Program-made: the position numbers and the translations under genes
The notes under the pieces: model-generated
The model's input: only the letters and a program-made list of their open reading frames with translations
The model's database searches: none
What the model was told of the DNA's origin: nothing
Source of the DNA: Candidatus Methanomethylophilaceae archaeon
Lineage (GTDB): Archaea; Thermoplasmatota; Thermoplasmata; Methanomassiliicoccales; Methanomethylophilaceae
Assembly: GCA_944322255.1 (NCBI GenBank)
Contig: CALUOK010000011.1
Span: forward strand, 1-64,000
Direction: 5' to 3'
DNA length: 64,000 nucleotides
Shown: positions 19,060 to 23,514 of the stretch, one piece after another
Layout: every line of letters starts with the position of its first letter
How positions within the stretch are numbered: position 1 is the stretch's first letter

Positions 19060-21018
19060 ATGACCGGCCGCATCGGATTCAGGGAGTACCTCGGAAAGCG
19101 CGAGCTGACCATACTCGTGCTGGCGTTCGTCATCACGGGGGTGACGAACTACATCAGCATCCACCTCCCCATCGAGCTGGAGCCCTATCTGGCACTGTGC
19201 CCGGTCATCGGTCTTCTGTTCGGTCCCATGGGCATAATCGGGGTCAACCTGGTCAGCTTCATCTACAACACCTGGATGGGCTACCCGTTCGACCTGGTCA
19301 TCCTGGACCTGCTGAACGTCTTCATGGTCTCGTACATCCCGTACAGGCTGTGGTACAGCATCGGCATGGGCAGGGACGACCGTCCCCCTGTGCTCGACTC
19401 CGTGTTCAACGTGTCCAAGTTCATGGTCATCATGACCGTGACCAGCCTGGTGTACACCCTCCTCTACAACATCCTCTACACGTACCTGGAGGGCAGCATG
19501 GTCCTGGACGTGACGGACCTGGTCAGGTTCCTGAAGGTGGTCTCGTTCTCGTTCCTGTTCGGCATGTCCGCCATCCTGGTGCTTAGGTATCTCGGCGTGA
19601 GGTTCGAGACCCCCCGGTTCGGTGGCACCCCCGACGGATGGAGGCGCAGGGTCGACCCCCGCTGGTTCGACGTCGTCCTGATGGTCGGGGCCGTGGTCCC
19701 GGCGGCGCTGATGTGCACGAACCCGGACCAGGGCGTGTTCACCGTGCTGGCCGTGATCGAGTACGGCATGCTTCTGGCGTTCCTGCTGAAGCCGGTCGAC
19801 CCCGCCCACACCGAGGAGAAGACCGTCAACGTCGGCGGCCTCAGGATCAACAAGTTCGACCGCACCCTCATCGAGCGCTTCATAGCCATGTTCGTTGTCA
19901 TCGGCCTGGCGATATGCGTCGGCGTGGGACTGTCCAGTTACTTCATCTTCAGCGGGATCAGGACGCCCGAGGAGCTCAGCGGCGACGTCGTCATGTACAT
20001 GAGCGTCGCCCTCCTGGCGTTCTTCATCCCCTCCGTCATCATACTGTGGTACATCGAGAACAGGGTCACCGTCCCGGTCGGCGCCATATCCGCCGCGTCC
20101 AGGAACTTCGTCAGCCACGACTACGACGAGTTCTCGGCCGAGTTCGCGGACACCTGCGCCAGGTTCACCGGCGCCGACAACGAGATCGGCGAGCTGGCCA
20201 GGTCCCTGTCCAAGATGAACGTGGACATGGGGACCTACATCGAGGACATAAGGAACCTTAACAGCCAGCAGGAGATGTACCGCGCGGAGCTGAATGTCGC
20301 CAAGAACATCCAGGAGTCCTTCGTACCCAGGGACTTCTCCATCGTGGACGGTACCGGCGCATCCATAGCCGGGTCCATGGAGGCCGCCAAGTACGTCGGC
20401 GGGGACTTCTACGACTTCTACATGGTGGACGAGGACCACCTGGCCGTCGTCATCGGCGACGTCTCGGGGAAGGGGGTGCCGGCGGCGCTGTTCATGGCCG
20501 TCACCAAGAACCTCATCGAGAGCCAGTCCCATCCCGGGAAGGACCCCGCGGAGATCATATCCCTAGTGAACGCCAGTCTGAGCAGGAACAACGACGAGAA
20601 CATGTTTGTCACCGTCTGGCTGGGGATACTGGACCTGGTCACGGGCAGGATGACCTACTGCAGCGCCGGACACAACCCGCCGGTCATCGTCCGCCGCGGA
20701 TCCCGGCCGGAGCTCCTGAAGTCCAAGGCGTTCCTGGTCATGGGGGCCAAGGAGACGGCGAAGTACGGTTCCTTCGAGGTGGACCTGGAGCCGGGCGACA
20801 GGATCCTCCTGTACACGGACGGCATCACCGAGGCCAACGACGACTACAACGGGTTCTACGGCACGGACAGGCTCATGGACGTCATGGCCGGGAACGGGGA
20901 CATGACCCCCGAGAGGCAGATAGAATCGGTGTCGGAGGACGTGGCGGAGTTCACCAACGGCGCGGAGCAGTTCGATGACATGACGATGCTGCTGCTCAGA
21001 TACGACGGAAGGGCCTGA
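19060..21018 (+). CDS. Membrane SpoIIE/RsbU-type PP2C protein phosphatase with HAMP linker
   Basis: A 652-residue receptor-phosphatase. Residues 15-245 form seven or so membrane helices resembling the sensor domains of bacterial SpoIIE proteins, two more helices follow (270-295 and 308-332), then a HAMP-like linker (about 333-395) and a coiled coil. The PP2C domain starts near 410: GGDFYDF (447-453), GDVSGKG (466-472), AGHNPP (536-541), LYTDGITEA (584-592) and DDMTML (639-644), so all metal-binding acids are present. Such phosphatases dephosphorylate STAS antagonists in bacterial partner switching. It converges, three bases apart, on an RsbW-like kinase gene, with a STAS gene 2 kb downstream. 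Confidence 0.88.
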   Translation: MTGRIGFREYLGKRELTILVLAFVITGVTNYISIHLPIELEPYLALCPVIGLLFGPMGIIGVNLVSFIYNTWMGYPFDLVILDLLNVFMVSYIPYRLWYSIGMGRDDRPPVLDSVFNVSKFMVIMTVTSLVYTLLYNILYTYLEGSMVLDVTDLVRFLKVVSFSFLFGMSAILVLRYLGVRFETPRFGGTPDGWRRRVDPRWFDVVLMVGAVVPAALMCTNPDQGVFTVLAVIEYGMLLAFLLKPVDPAHTEEKTVNVGGLRINKFDRTLIERFIAMFVVIGLAICVGVGLSSYFIFSGIRTPEELSGDVVMYMSVALLAFFIPSVIILWYIENRVTVPVGAISAASRNFVSHDYDEFSAEFADTCARFTGADNEIGELARSLSKMNVDMGTYIEDIRNLNSQQEMYRAELNVAKNIQESFVPRDFSIVDGTGASIAGSMEAAKYVGGDFYDFYMVDEDHLAVVIGDVSGKGVPAALFMAVTKNLIESQSHPGKDPAEIISLVNASLSRNNDENMFVTVWLGILDLVTGRMTYCSAGHNPPVIVRRGSRPELLKSKAFLVMGAKETAKYGSFEVDLEPGDRILLYTDGITEANDDYNGFYGTDRLMDVMAGNGDMTPERQIESVSEDVAEFTNGAEQFDDMTMLLLRYDGRA

Positions 21019-21021
21019 GGA

Positions 21022-21435
21022 TCAGGACAGCTCCTTCTCCACCGTCAGTATGTTGCGACCGTTCTCGCGGCGGTAGCTGATACCATCCACGGTGTTCTTC
21101 ACCAGGTATATCCCCAGACCGCCGATCGGACGCTCGTCCGCACCCAGCGTGGTGTCCGGATCCTCCCTCTCCAGGGGGTCGAACTCGGGACCCTCGTCGG
21201 TGAAGGTGATCACGACCTTCATCCTGTCCCCCACCACGTCACAGGAGATGTCCACATCACCCGAGCCGTGGGGATGGTAGGCATAGTTGGCTATGTTGAC
21301 GAAGATCTCCTCGACCACCAGCTGCAGCTGAAGGAGCGTCTTGCTGGAGGCCCCGCAACCCGAGAGGCACTCCTCCACGAACTCCTGGACCTGGTAGAGC
21401 CTCTCCTTGTCCGACGGCACTGTGATCGTCTTCAT
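21022..21435 (-). CDS. RsbW-like serine kinase (anti-sigma-type HATPase)
   Basis: A 137-residue single-domain GHKL ATPase. The N box (VVEEIFVNIANYAY, near 42-55), G1 box (DEGPEFDP) and G2 box (GGLGIYLVKNTVD) follow the RsbW/SpoIIAB pattern. In bacteria these kinases phosphorylate a STAS protein and sequester a sigma factor. Archaea have no sigma factors, so the bound partner here must be something else. It sits opposite the SpoIIE-type phosphatase and near a STAS gene, together completing a partner-switching set. Confidence 0.85.
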   Translation of the reverse strand: MKTITVPSDKERLYQVQEFVEECLSGCGASSKTLLQLQLVVEEIFVNIANYAYHPHGSGDVDISCDVVGDRMKVVITFTDEGPEFDPLEREDPDTTLGADERPIGGLGIYLVKNTVDGISYRRENGRNILTVEKELS

Positions 21436-21490
21436 CCGTCATCTCCCGGCGCCGAACGCCGGACCTCCATCATCCCACCGATTAAAAGGG

Positions 21491-22051
21491 TTAGCGGGAG
21501 TCGTCGTACATTATCCTGTAGCCCTCGGCGGTGTACAGCGGGGTCAGGAACGCGTACTTGACCCAGTTGACGAGGGGCCTGTCCTCCTCCATGAGGGGGA
21601 CGTAGTACGACCTGATCGGCCTCGTGAACATCATGACCAGGATGGTCAGGGACAGCGGCGTCACGATCGCCGGATTGAATGCCACGAACCCGACGGCGGT
21701 GCTCTGGCTCAGACCCAGCCACGCGACTATGTTGAAGATCGCCAGCAGGAACGATGCCCTGACCACCTTCTTCCACGCCTTCGGGCGCTTCGACATGATG
21801 GCGAGGGCCGAATCCGTGGTGACGACCATCATGATGATCTCCACGATGAACATGAACAGCGACACGTAGGGGCGCCCGTAGTCCTCGTACATCCCCGTGA
21901 CCAGTATGCAGACCTTGACGATGTACAGCCCCAGGATGACAAGCAGGAACGCCTCCCCGAACTTCAACGCCACAGGGATGCTGCCCTTGCGCAGCCCTCT
22001 GGCCAGCCTGACGATGACCGTGCACTCGTCGCCAGATCCGCTCATGGGCAT
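21491..22051 (-). CDS. Unknown four-helix membrane protein
   Basis: A 186-residue protein I do not recognise. It shows about four hydrophobic segments (near 30-52, 62-82, 97-117 and 128-150) separated by basic loops such as MSKRPKAWKK. The C-terminus ends YRIMYDDSR. An ATG two codons in (22045) is an alternative start. The stop is TAA. Its position between the RsbW-like kinase and another unknown membrane gene, with which it shares a 38-base divergent promoter region, suggests a role in the same signalling module. Confidence 0.7.
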   Translation of the reverse strand: MPMSGSGDECTVIVRLARGLRKGSIPVALKFGEAFLLVILGLYIVKVCILVTGMYEDYGRPYVSLFMFIVEIIMMVVTTDSALAIMSKRPKAWKKVVRASFLLAIFNIVAWLGLSQSTAVGFVAFNPAIVTPLSLTILVMMFTRPIRSYYVPLMEEDRPLVNWVKYAFLTPLYTAEGYRIMYDDSR

Positions 22052-22089
22052 CAGATAGCGTTTTCAACGGAATAAACCATTCGCCCCCC

Positions 22090-22980
22090 ATGGAGAGGAA
22101 CCAGTGGGCTGACAGGTTCACGGACACCGTCGTGCGCCGCACGGACTACGACTCGGTGCCGGGGACGGACACGGTGGTCCTCATCCTCCTCATACCGGCG
22201 ATCTTCGGCCTGCTGGTGACCGCGGTCATCCTGATCTACCATACGGAGGTCTTCGACGACCCCGACACCACGTACATCGCCACAGCCATGGGCCTTCTCG
22301 CCCAGTGCGGCCTGGCGGCCTTCGTGCTGTTCTCGCTGGCCAACAGGACCCGCCGCCACGTCCTGCGCGACACCATATGGATGGACAGCCTCATCGGCTA
22401 CGTGGAGTCCCACGACGCCGACGCCTCCGGCATGAGGCGCGTCCGCGACGAGATCCCCCACTACTACAACCTCTCGGCCTTCGTCTCCGCCGGGCTGTGG
22501 ATCGTGACCACGGTCATCGTCGTCGCCGGCGGCATAGCCATGTCCAGAGCGGGCCTGTCCGACTTCGCCTACGACACCCTGGTCTACGCCTACCTACTGT
22601 TGATGGTCCAGTTCGCGGTCACGCTGGGATCCACAATCAGGTTCCCTTACAGGCACGACGACATGCAGTGCAGGTTCACCGAGGAGCTGTCCGACGCCTG
22701 CTCGGGCTTCGGACTGTCCGTGAAGCCGATGGAGCCCTCGGTGAGGAAGCCCCACTCGGTCGTCAACGCCATCCTCTTCGTCATCACCCTCGGACTGTAC
22801 GCGTTCATCCTGCTCCTCCTGGCCAACCACCGCACCAACAGGCACATCACGTCGCAGTGGAGGTACGAGTCGCACCTGATGGTCTCCATCATAAGGTTCG
22901 AGGGCGGCATCGGCGTGGAGGGCTACGGGGACAACCAGCCGAAGAACTGGCTGGTCAGGCTGATATTCAACGTCCTCTGA
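22090..22980 (+). CDS. Unknown membrane protein with DUF4234-like C-terminal segment
   Basis: A 296-residue protein with helices near 28-50, 62-82, 135-160 and 168-188 and two more around 222-245. The segment VNAILFVITLGLYAFILLLLAN, followed by a short basic linker, is reminiscent of DUF4234-type membrane proteins but the match is loose. No catalytic motif is visible. It lies immediately upstream of the STAS gene (62 bases, with its own TATA box) and is divergent from the other unknown membrane gene, so membrane output or input of the partner-switching module is a reasonable guess. Confidence 0.7.
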   Translation: MERNQWADRFTDTVVRRTDYDSVPGTDTVVLILLIPAIFGLLVTAVILIYHTEVFDDPDTTYIATAMGLLAQCGLAAFVLFSLANRTRRHVLRDTIWMDSLIGYVESHDADASGMRRVRDEIPHYYNLSAFVSAGLWIVTTVIVVAGGIAMSRAGLSDFAYDTLVYAYLLLMVQFAVTLGSTIRFPYRHDDMQCRFTEELSDACSGFGLSVKPMEPSVRKPHSVVNAILFVITLGLYAFILLLLANHRTNRHITSQWRYESHLMVSIIRFEGGIGVEGYGDNQPKNWLVRLIFNVL

Positions 22981-22995
22981 CGTTCTCAGACGACA

Positions 22996-23005
22996 GTATA
23001 AATAG
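22996..23005 (+). promoter_or_regulatory. TATA box of the STAS gene
   Basis: GTATAAATAG about 40 bases before the STAS ATG. It gives the antagonist gene its own promoter separate from the upstream membrane gene. An AGGAT ribosome-binding site follows at 23035-23039. Confidence 0.55.
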
Positions 23006-23042
23006 AGAAGACGCACGTCCGCCCCACGGAGCTCAGGATATC

Positions 23043-23354
23043 ATGTTCGGGAAGAAGAGCAAGGGAGACGCGCTGACCGCCAGCTACACCGAGGAGAACG
23101 ACACCGTCCTCATCAGACTGGACGGCAGGCTCGACTCCGTGACATCCAGGGAGTTCCAGACGGAGGCCGTCGACAGGTGCAGGAACAGGCCCACCACCCT
23201 CGACATGGGACTGGTCACGTACATCTCCAGCGCCGGCCTCAGGGCGATCCTCGCTCTGGACAAGGCGGTCGGATCCAACAAACTGTCCATAATCAACGCC
23301 AAGGACTCCGTGAAGGACGTGCTCGACATGTCCGGGTTCAGCGACTTCATCTGA
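23043..23354 (+). CDS. STAS-domain anti-sigma-factor-antagonist-like protein
   Basis: A 103-residue STAS domain (RsbV/SpoIIAA type). The core VLIRLDGRLDSVTSREFQ is followed by VTYISSAGLRAIL, in which the first Ser of the SSAG loop is the usual phosphorylation site, and the protein ends DMSGFSDFI, also typical. In bacteria the unphosphorylated STAS protein frees the target of an RsbW kinase. With the kinase at 21022 and phosphatase at 19060 it makes a complete switch. The N-terminal basic stretch (GKKSKGDA) is an extension. Confidence 0.88.
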   Translation: MFGKKSKGDALTASYTEENDTVLIRLDGRLDSVTSREFQTEAVDRCRNRPTTLDMGLVTYISSAGLRAILALDKAVGSNKLSIINAKDSVKDVLDMSGFSDFI

Positions 23355-23400: not shown

Positions 23401-23514
23401 CCCCACTTAGCTCAGACTGGCCAGAGCGGCTGACTGTAGAGTGTTTTCGGAAGAAAATCCGATACAGCCGCTGAAATCAGCAGGTCCCCTGTTCAAATCA
23501 GGGAGTGGGGACCA
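23401..23514 (+). tRNA. tRNA-Tyr: tRNA-Tyr (GUA) with intron
   Basis: A full cloverleaf with a 7-bp acceptor stem CCCCACT/AGTGGGG, D-arm GCTC/GAGC, anticodon GTA at 23436-23438, T-arm CCCTG/CAGGG and an encoded CCA end. A 36-base intron (about 23440-23475) interrupts it after position 37. The intron holds TACAG (23463-23467), which pairs with CTGTA spanning the anticodon, the central helix of a bulge-helix-bulge splice structure, plus a TTTTC-GGAA-GAAAA hairpin. An AT-rich TATA region (TTAAATTTAAATATAA) lies about 30 bases upstream. Confidence 0.93.

Follow-up and report, generated by a model that had tools for sequence, protein, structure and literature searches.

SpoII-type trios in archaea were reported in 2009 from Methanomicrobiales (Memar_2467-2469 and Mlab_1450-1452), where, according to that paper, the genome does not allow the targets to be determined (PMC2686161), and the role of anti-sigma-like kinases in sigma-free archaea has been a standing question ever since. 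For Methanobrevibacter ruminantium M1, Leahy et al. (2010) described NRPS clusters accompanied by serine phosphatases, an anti-sigma factor antagonist and MatE, and suggested that these serve environment sensing, control of NRPS expression and export (PMC2812497). The locus studied here had been put forward in the original prediction as a possible new archaeal signalling switch, and its novelty is not borne out given the trios already known from these two sources. What is new is the wiring of the switch to small-molecule synthesis and export genes, as our survey of its relatives revealed.

In the following, the window is the whole stretch of 64,000 nucleotides that was analysed, G000 is the genome from which it comes, and the order-wide comparison covers 147 genomes of Methanomassiliicoccales.

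The trio and its catalytic motifs

With a codon-trained gene caller, five genes are found at the locus:

19060-21018, plus strand: membrane-bound SpoIIE/RsbU-type PPM serine phosphatase, 652 aa (Pfam PF07228, E=5e-55)
21022-21435, minus strand: RsbW/SpoIIAB-like GHKL serine kinase, 137 aa (HATPase_c_2 PF13581, E=9e-25; RsbW 6m36, E=2.6e-8)
21491-22051, minus strand: membrane protein 1, 186 aa, four predicted TM segments (gene call, hydropathy)
22090-22980, plus strand: membrane protein 2, 296 aa, five predicted TM segments (gene call, hydropathy)
23043-23354, plus strand: STAS-domain antagonist, 103 aa, candidate phospho-acceptor Ser63 (PF01740, E=6e-12; SpoIIAA 1th8, E=9e-7)

The prediction of a trio with intact catalytic motifs at 19060-23354 was confirmed, all five genes being called again in their places and the Pfam matches agreeing with the motif alignments. 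The phosphatase consists of about eight hydrophobic segments (residues 16-324, by hydropathy), a linker and a catalytic domain at 457-648 (Pfam); its Asp motifs are all present (GGDFYD 447-452, GDVSGKG 466-472, YTDGITEA 585-592 and DDMT 639-642), and their Asp residues do not vary across an alignment of 13 members. A structure search with the model of its membrane region (pLDDT 66) gave no PDB match at E<=0.001. In the kinase, whose gene is convergent with that of the phosphatase across a gap of 3 bp, alignment to the solved RsbW 6m36 shows the N-box Glu43/Asn47 and the DEGPEFDP and IGGLGIYL boxes intact, while Ser63 of the STAS protein, within YISSAGL, aligns with the phosphorylated Ser of SpoIIAA 1th8. 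Genome searches of G000 found one SpoIIE copy, which is the window gene, three STAS domains and three HATPase_c_2 domains above the cut-off; the window kinase is the only free-standing one, the remaining HATPase_c_2 matches being fused to STAS or MATE or lying below the cut-off. The phosphorylation chemistry is deduced from these intact homologues, and we infer from them that the locus is a partner-switching module that works with no sigma factor.

Directly after the STAS gene, at 23401-23511, there is a tRNA gene that Rfam finds and ARAGORN misses; its anticodon seems to be GUA (Tyr), and about 39 additional bases past the anticodon region are probably an intron.

Absence of sigma factors and probable origin of the module

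The genes directly upstream of the locus, namely eL42, aIF2-alpha and a PAC2-family gene, form a typical archaeal block (gene calls, Pfam), and Sigma70_r2 is absent from G000 in a genome search that was positive in 10 control bacteria; together these identify the host as an archaeon. Beyond the order, 80 SpoIIE loci were collected and the 1.14 Mb around them scanned with a small sigma profile built from 20 sigma hits, which gave only four hits, all of them kilobases away from the SpoIIE gene. A sigma factor as the kinase target is therefore ruled out, there being none in the genome and none close to SpoIIE in the outside loci, and the expectation that the kinase must have some other partner holds.

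Within the named collection, the nearest SpoIIE relatives belong to Clostridia of the rumen and gut, to Treponema and to one Methanobrevibacter. The window kinase falls in a clade of six archaeal sequences (support 100/95) that is nested in a largely bacterial group (87/82). Since the deep branches of the kinase tree are without resolution, a bacterial origin is read from the nesting alone; the module was likely transferred from gut bacteria, a direction deduced from these sequence relationships.

Co-occurrence of the trio across the order

SpoIIE is present in 37 of the 147 genomes, relatives of the kinase in 36/147 and STAS in 41/147. SpoIIE and kinase relatives occur together in 34/147 genomes (p=1.8e-27), SpoIIE and STAS in 35/147 (p=3e-25), where these counts, as well as those of neighbours below, take no account of phylogeny and include some genomes that are close kin; within genus alone the association of SpoIIE with the kinase persists (p=3.5e-5). 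Moreover, phosphatase and kinase share one open frame in 24 of the 39 SpoIIE loci of the order, usually with STAS adjoining. The three parts thus co-occur far beyond chance and form a genuine module, which a minority of the order carries. The proposed co-occurrence of all five genes held for the trio, which recurs across the 147 genomes, but not for the full five-gene layout, which is found only in G000 and G098.

Neighbouring genes in the order and beyond

In 26 of the 39 SpoIIE loci of the order, genes for small-molecule synthesis or export (NRPS, LuxE/LuxC, GH3, ABC, MATE) adjoin the module:

NRPS with terminal reductase: 14/39 loci
LuxE/LuxC class (STAS, HATPase-X, LuxE, LuxC/AMP-binding, MATE-HATPase fusion): 5/39 loci
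GH3/ATP-grasp/ABC class (ABC-ABC-STAS-GH3-kinase): 2/39 loci
GH3-STAS-MATE: 1/39 loci
ABC pairs (ABC-ABC-STAS): 3/39 loci
STAS-MATE: 1/39 loci

Besides these 26, four loci of families f4-f6 (L060, L065, L071 and L085) have SpoIIE, HATPase and STAS as separate genes ahead of a conserved gene of metallo-beta-lactamase fold, about 530-565 aa, which stands behind STAS. The SpoIIE of L065 has a 5TMR-LYT region.

Strong NRPS condensation domains occur in 14 genomes of the order, 13 of which have SpoIIE (p=3e-8), and the association within genus alone is not significant (p=0.09). For example in L088:1611-9998, and in 13 more loci, an NRPS with AMP-binding, condensation, carrier and terminal reductase domains adjoins a fused SpoIIE-kinase. 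Reductive release from the NRPS suggests an aldehyde or alcohol product, and the NRPS frames of 5,225 codons in G077 and G078 fit the published 5,216-residue NRPS of isolate ISO4-G1 (PMC4824259), in keeping with the placement of these genomes in Methanomassiliicoccales. For G000 itself an NRPS output is ruled out, as the genome has no Condensation domain.

Such output genes are also present at 25 of the 80 outside loci, with MATE at 12, ABC at 7, GH3 at 5 and NRPS domains at 4. For instance in one Methanobrevibacter MAG (L145:4230-12480), a fusion of GH3 with a HATPase_c_2 kinase (711 aa) is found together with STAS, a MATE-HATPase fusion and two successive SpoIIE genes. The original prediction considered that the switch may serve transcription, envelope or motility; the neighbours of its relatives point elsewhere, to small-molecule synthesis and export, and are the best clue to its role in G000.

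It may still be asked whether a protein of transcription, be it TFB, TBP or a helix-turn-helix regulator, is what the kinase holds, so that it acts as an archaeal stand-in for an anti-sigma factor. Bacterial switches follow this logic as a rule, and expression control could be the meaning of the NRPS link, as proposed for M. ruminantium (PMC2812497). However, no conserved transcription-factor gene was found among the neighbour clusters inspected, and the fusion partners of kinase domains are instead MATE transporters, GH3 and STAS-X proteins, which suggests control at the protein level; we regard this explanation as unlikely.

The pair of membrane proteins

Neither membrane protein 1 nor membrane protein 2 has a Pfam family above the cut-off, and for protein 2, whose model is all-helical (pLDDT 86), the structure search gave no PDB match at E<=0.001. 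That the switch gates these local proteins, with the kinase or STAS binding a channel, transporter or receptor formed by protein 1 or 2, is suggested by the layout: on the minus strand, the gene of protein 1 precedes the kinase gene by 55 bp; on the plus strand, that of protein 2 precedes the STAS gene by 62 bp; and the divergent spacer between the two membrane genes is 38 bp. The pair is also over-represented near SpoIIE and occurs there in two different module architectures; 7 cases within 10 kb were observed against 0.5 expected (p=9e-7, or p=0.014 if 3 are independent), so that a facultative link is possible. Against this, the two genes behave as an independent divergent pair that stays together in 30 of 30 loci examined, with the orientation altered in a few, and 40 of the 62 genomes that have the pair are without SpoIIE; moreover, the close trio relatives G076 and G100 have no pair at the locus. 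Since the kinase and STAS genes of G076 are divergent with no pair between them, the pair looks inserted between kinase and STAS in G000 and G098. A gate on the local membrane proteins is accordingly quite improbable, and the pair, being widespread without SpoIIE, is rejected as a dedicated partner and main explanation. The proposal of the two proteins as partner candidates is thus weakened to a pair nearer to the module than by chance and at most accessory to the switch.

The GH3 operon and a possible shared hub

Two further sets of genes in G000 bear on the output:

Contig C1, L264:799-6116 and L050:2015-5799: RimK ATP-grasp, GH3, RimK ATP-grasp, ABC, ABC, STAS, GH3
Contig C4, L046:4735-11858: STAS-HATPase-X fusion, LuxE, LuxC/AMP-binding, MATE with C-terminal HATPase_c_2

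The C1 operon, with two ATP-grasp ligases, two GH3 amide synthetases, two ABC genes and STAS, is a possible small-molecule cluster and itself includes neither kinase nor phosphatase. In G074 and G100, the kinase is the last gene of an ABC-ABC-STAS-GH3 operon (with a 4-bp overlap between GH3 and kinase genes in G100) and is convergent with the SpoIIE gene, and the SpoIIE-kinase site is the same chromosomal site as in the window, beside aIF2-alpha and PAC2. These operon kinases form one clade with the window kinase (100/95), and the SpoIIE of G074 clusters with that of the window (97, FastTree tree). In G000 and G098, the GH3 operon lies at another site, without a kinase. As the C1 operon lacks a kinase and phosphatase while the orthologous kinase of sister species ends the operon, the window pair probably serves the C1 operon.

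The distribution of STAS types varies across these genomes: a search for the trio-type STAS found none in G074, G076 has the trio STAS as its only type, G000 and G098 have both types with a single SpoIIE, and G100 has two full sets. A hub on which two STAS proteins depend in G000 would fit this pattern, as well as the count there of three STAS domains to one SpoIIE and one free-standing kinase. Strong GH3 is found in 6 genomes of the order, all 6 with SpoIIE (p=1.8e-4), where the association within genus alone is not significant (p=0.47).

Our favoured reading, held tentatively and at somewhat less than an even chance, is a sigma-free partner switch in which the window phosphatase-kinase pair is a hub for both the STAS of the C1 GH3/ATP-grasp/ABC operon and the local STAS at 23043; that the hub is common to two STAS proteins is read from gene content. 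In the absence of a signal, the kinase would phosphorylate Ser63 of STAS and so remain available to hold its target. Once the membrane region senses a signal, the SpoIIE domain would become active and dephosphorylate STAS; dephospho-STAS would then bind the kinase, and the target would be released or retuned. This target would most likely be a small-molecule production and export machine rather than a transcription factor, the best candidate in G000 being the C1 operon.

Several observations count against the hub. The window locus itself has no output gene, output genes adjoin only 25 of the 80 outside loci, and the GH3 association does not reach significance within genus alone (p=0.47). One kinase and one phosphatase would, besides, have to work on two STAS proteins that are divergent, whereas in B. 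subtilis SpoIIE and RsbU show strong discrimination (PMC11418112). Moreover G076, whose trio is the closest and whose sequence is one contig with a completeness rating of 99%, lacks GH3, NRPS and X genes alike, so that the local STAS must have another target there. This retention of the trio in G076, as well as the clade that the trio STAS forms with those of G076, G100 and G098 (99), would fit a private target of STAS 23043 encoded elsewhere, the C1 operon being unrelated to the window pair. In such an arrangement, neither kinase nor phosphatase would remain for the C1 STAS, unless it is served by the STAS-HATPase-X and MATE-HATPase fusions of C4, and we consider a private target doubtful, on a par with a transcription partner. 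In G076, the gene after the trio STAS (L054:7004-8002) weakly matches a family of replication-associated proteins, which hints at a mobile element.

The hub reading may also be extended: one hub would steer several STAS proteins, each acting by direct contact and with no transcription step on a different machine (GH3/ATP-grasp/ABC on the one hand, STAS-HATPase-X/LuxE/LuxC/MATE-HATPase on the other), as a metabolite-export switch common to gut archaea and gut Clostridia. This wider form is clearly less probable than the hub itself, though a little less doubtful than the private target.

Comparison with known systems

A literature search of incomplete coverage found no papers on GH3 with STAS, SpoIIE or MATE, and within the same coverage no precedent was found for a neighbourhood survey of such breadth, for the GH3 link or for the GH3-kinase fusion. 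The collected neighbourhoods, in which kinase domains occur as fusions with a GH3 enzyme and with MATE transporters, give concrete testable targets in the GH3 synthetase and the MATE and ABC exporters, and suggest that gut methanogens control specialised metabolism post-translationally.

Compared with SpoIIE/SpoIIAB/SpoIIAA and RsbU/RsbW/RsbV of Bacillus, the window trio belongs to the same three families with intact catalytic residues, and the same kinase-phosphatase-STAS cycle would be expected; the difference is that G000 has no sigma factor, and that among its relatives synthetases and exporters are the partners found nearby or in fusion. MlaB-MlaF is a precedent for direct action of a STAS protein on an ABC transporter, although it concerns a phospholipid transporter and its abstract mentions neither kinase nor phosphatase (PMC7367683). 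The SiaABCD system of Pseudomonas aeruginosa is a phosphatase-kinase-SiaC switch whose output is an enzyme, the diguanylate cyclase SiaD, and not a sigma factor (PMC8457831, PMC7647112); the window phosphatase, however, scores 46.6 bits with the SiaA model, against a cut-off of 700. The Methanomicrobiales trios (PMC2686161) are alike in being complete phosphatase-kinase-STAS trios in a methanogen, but belong to another order, whereas the window has the pair of membrane proteins, and a GH3 operon elsewhere in the genome. Finally, the clusters of the rumen methanogen M. ruminantium likewise tie partner-switch genes to the making and export of small molecules, and differ from G000 in their NRPS, in place of which the candidate output of G000 would be GH3/ATP-grasp/ABC or LuxC/LuxE/MATE.
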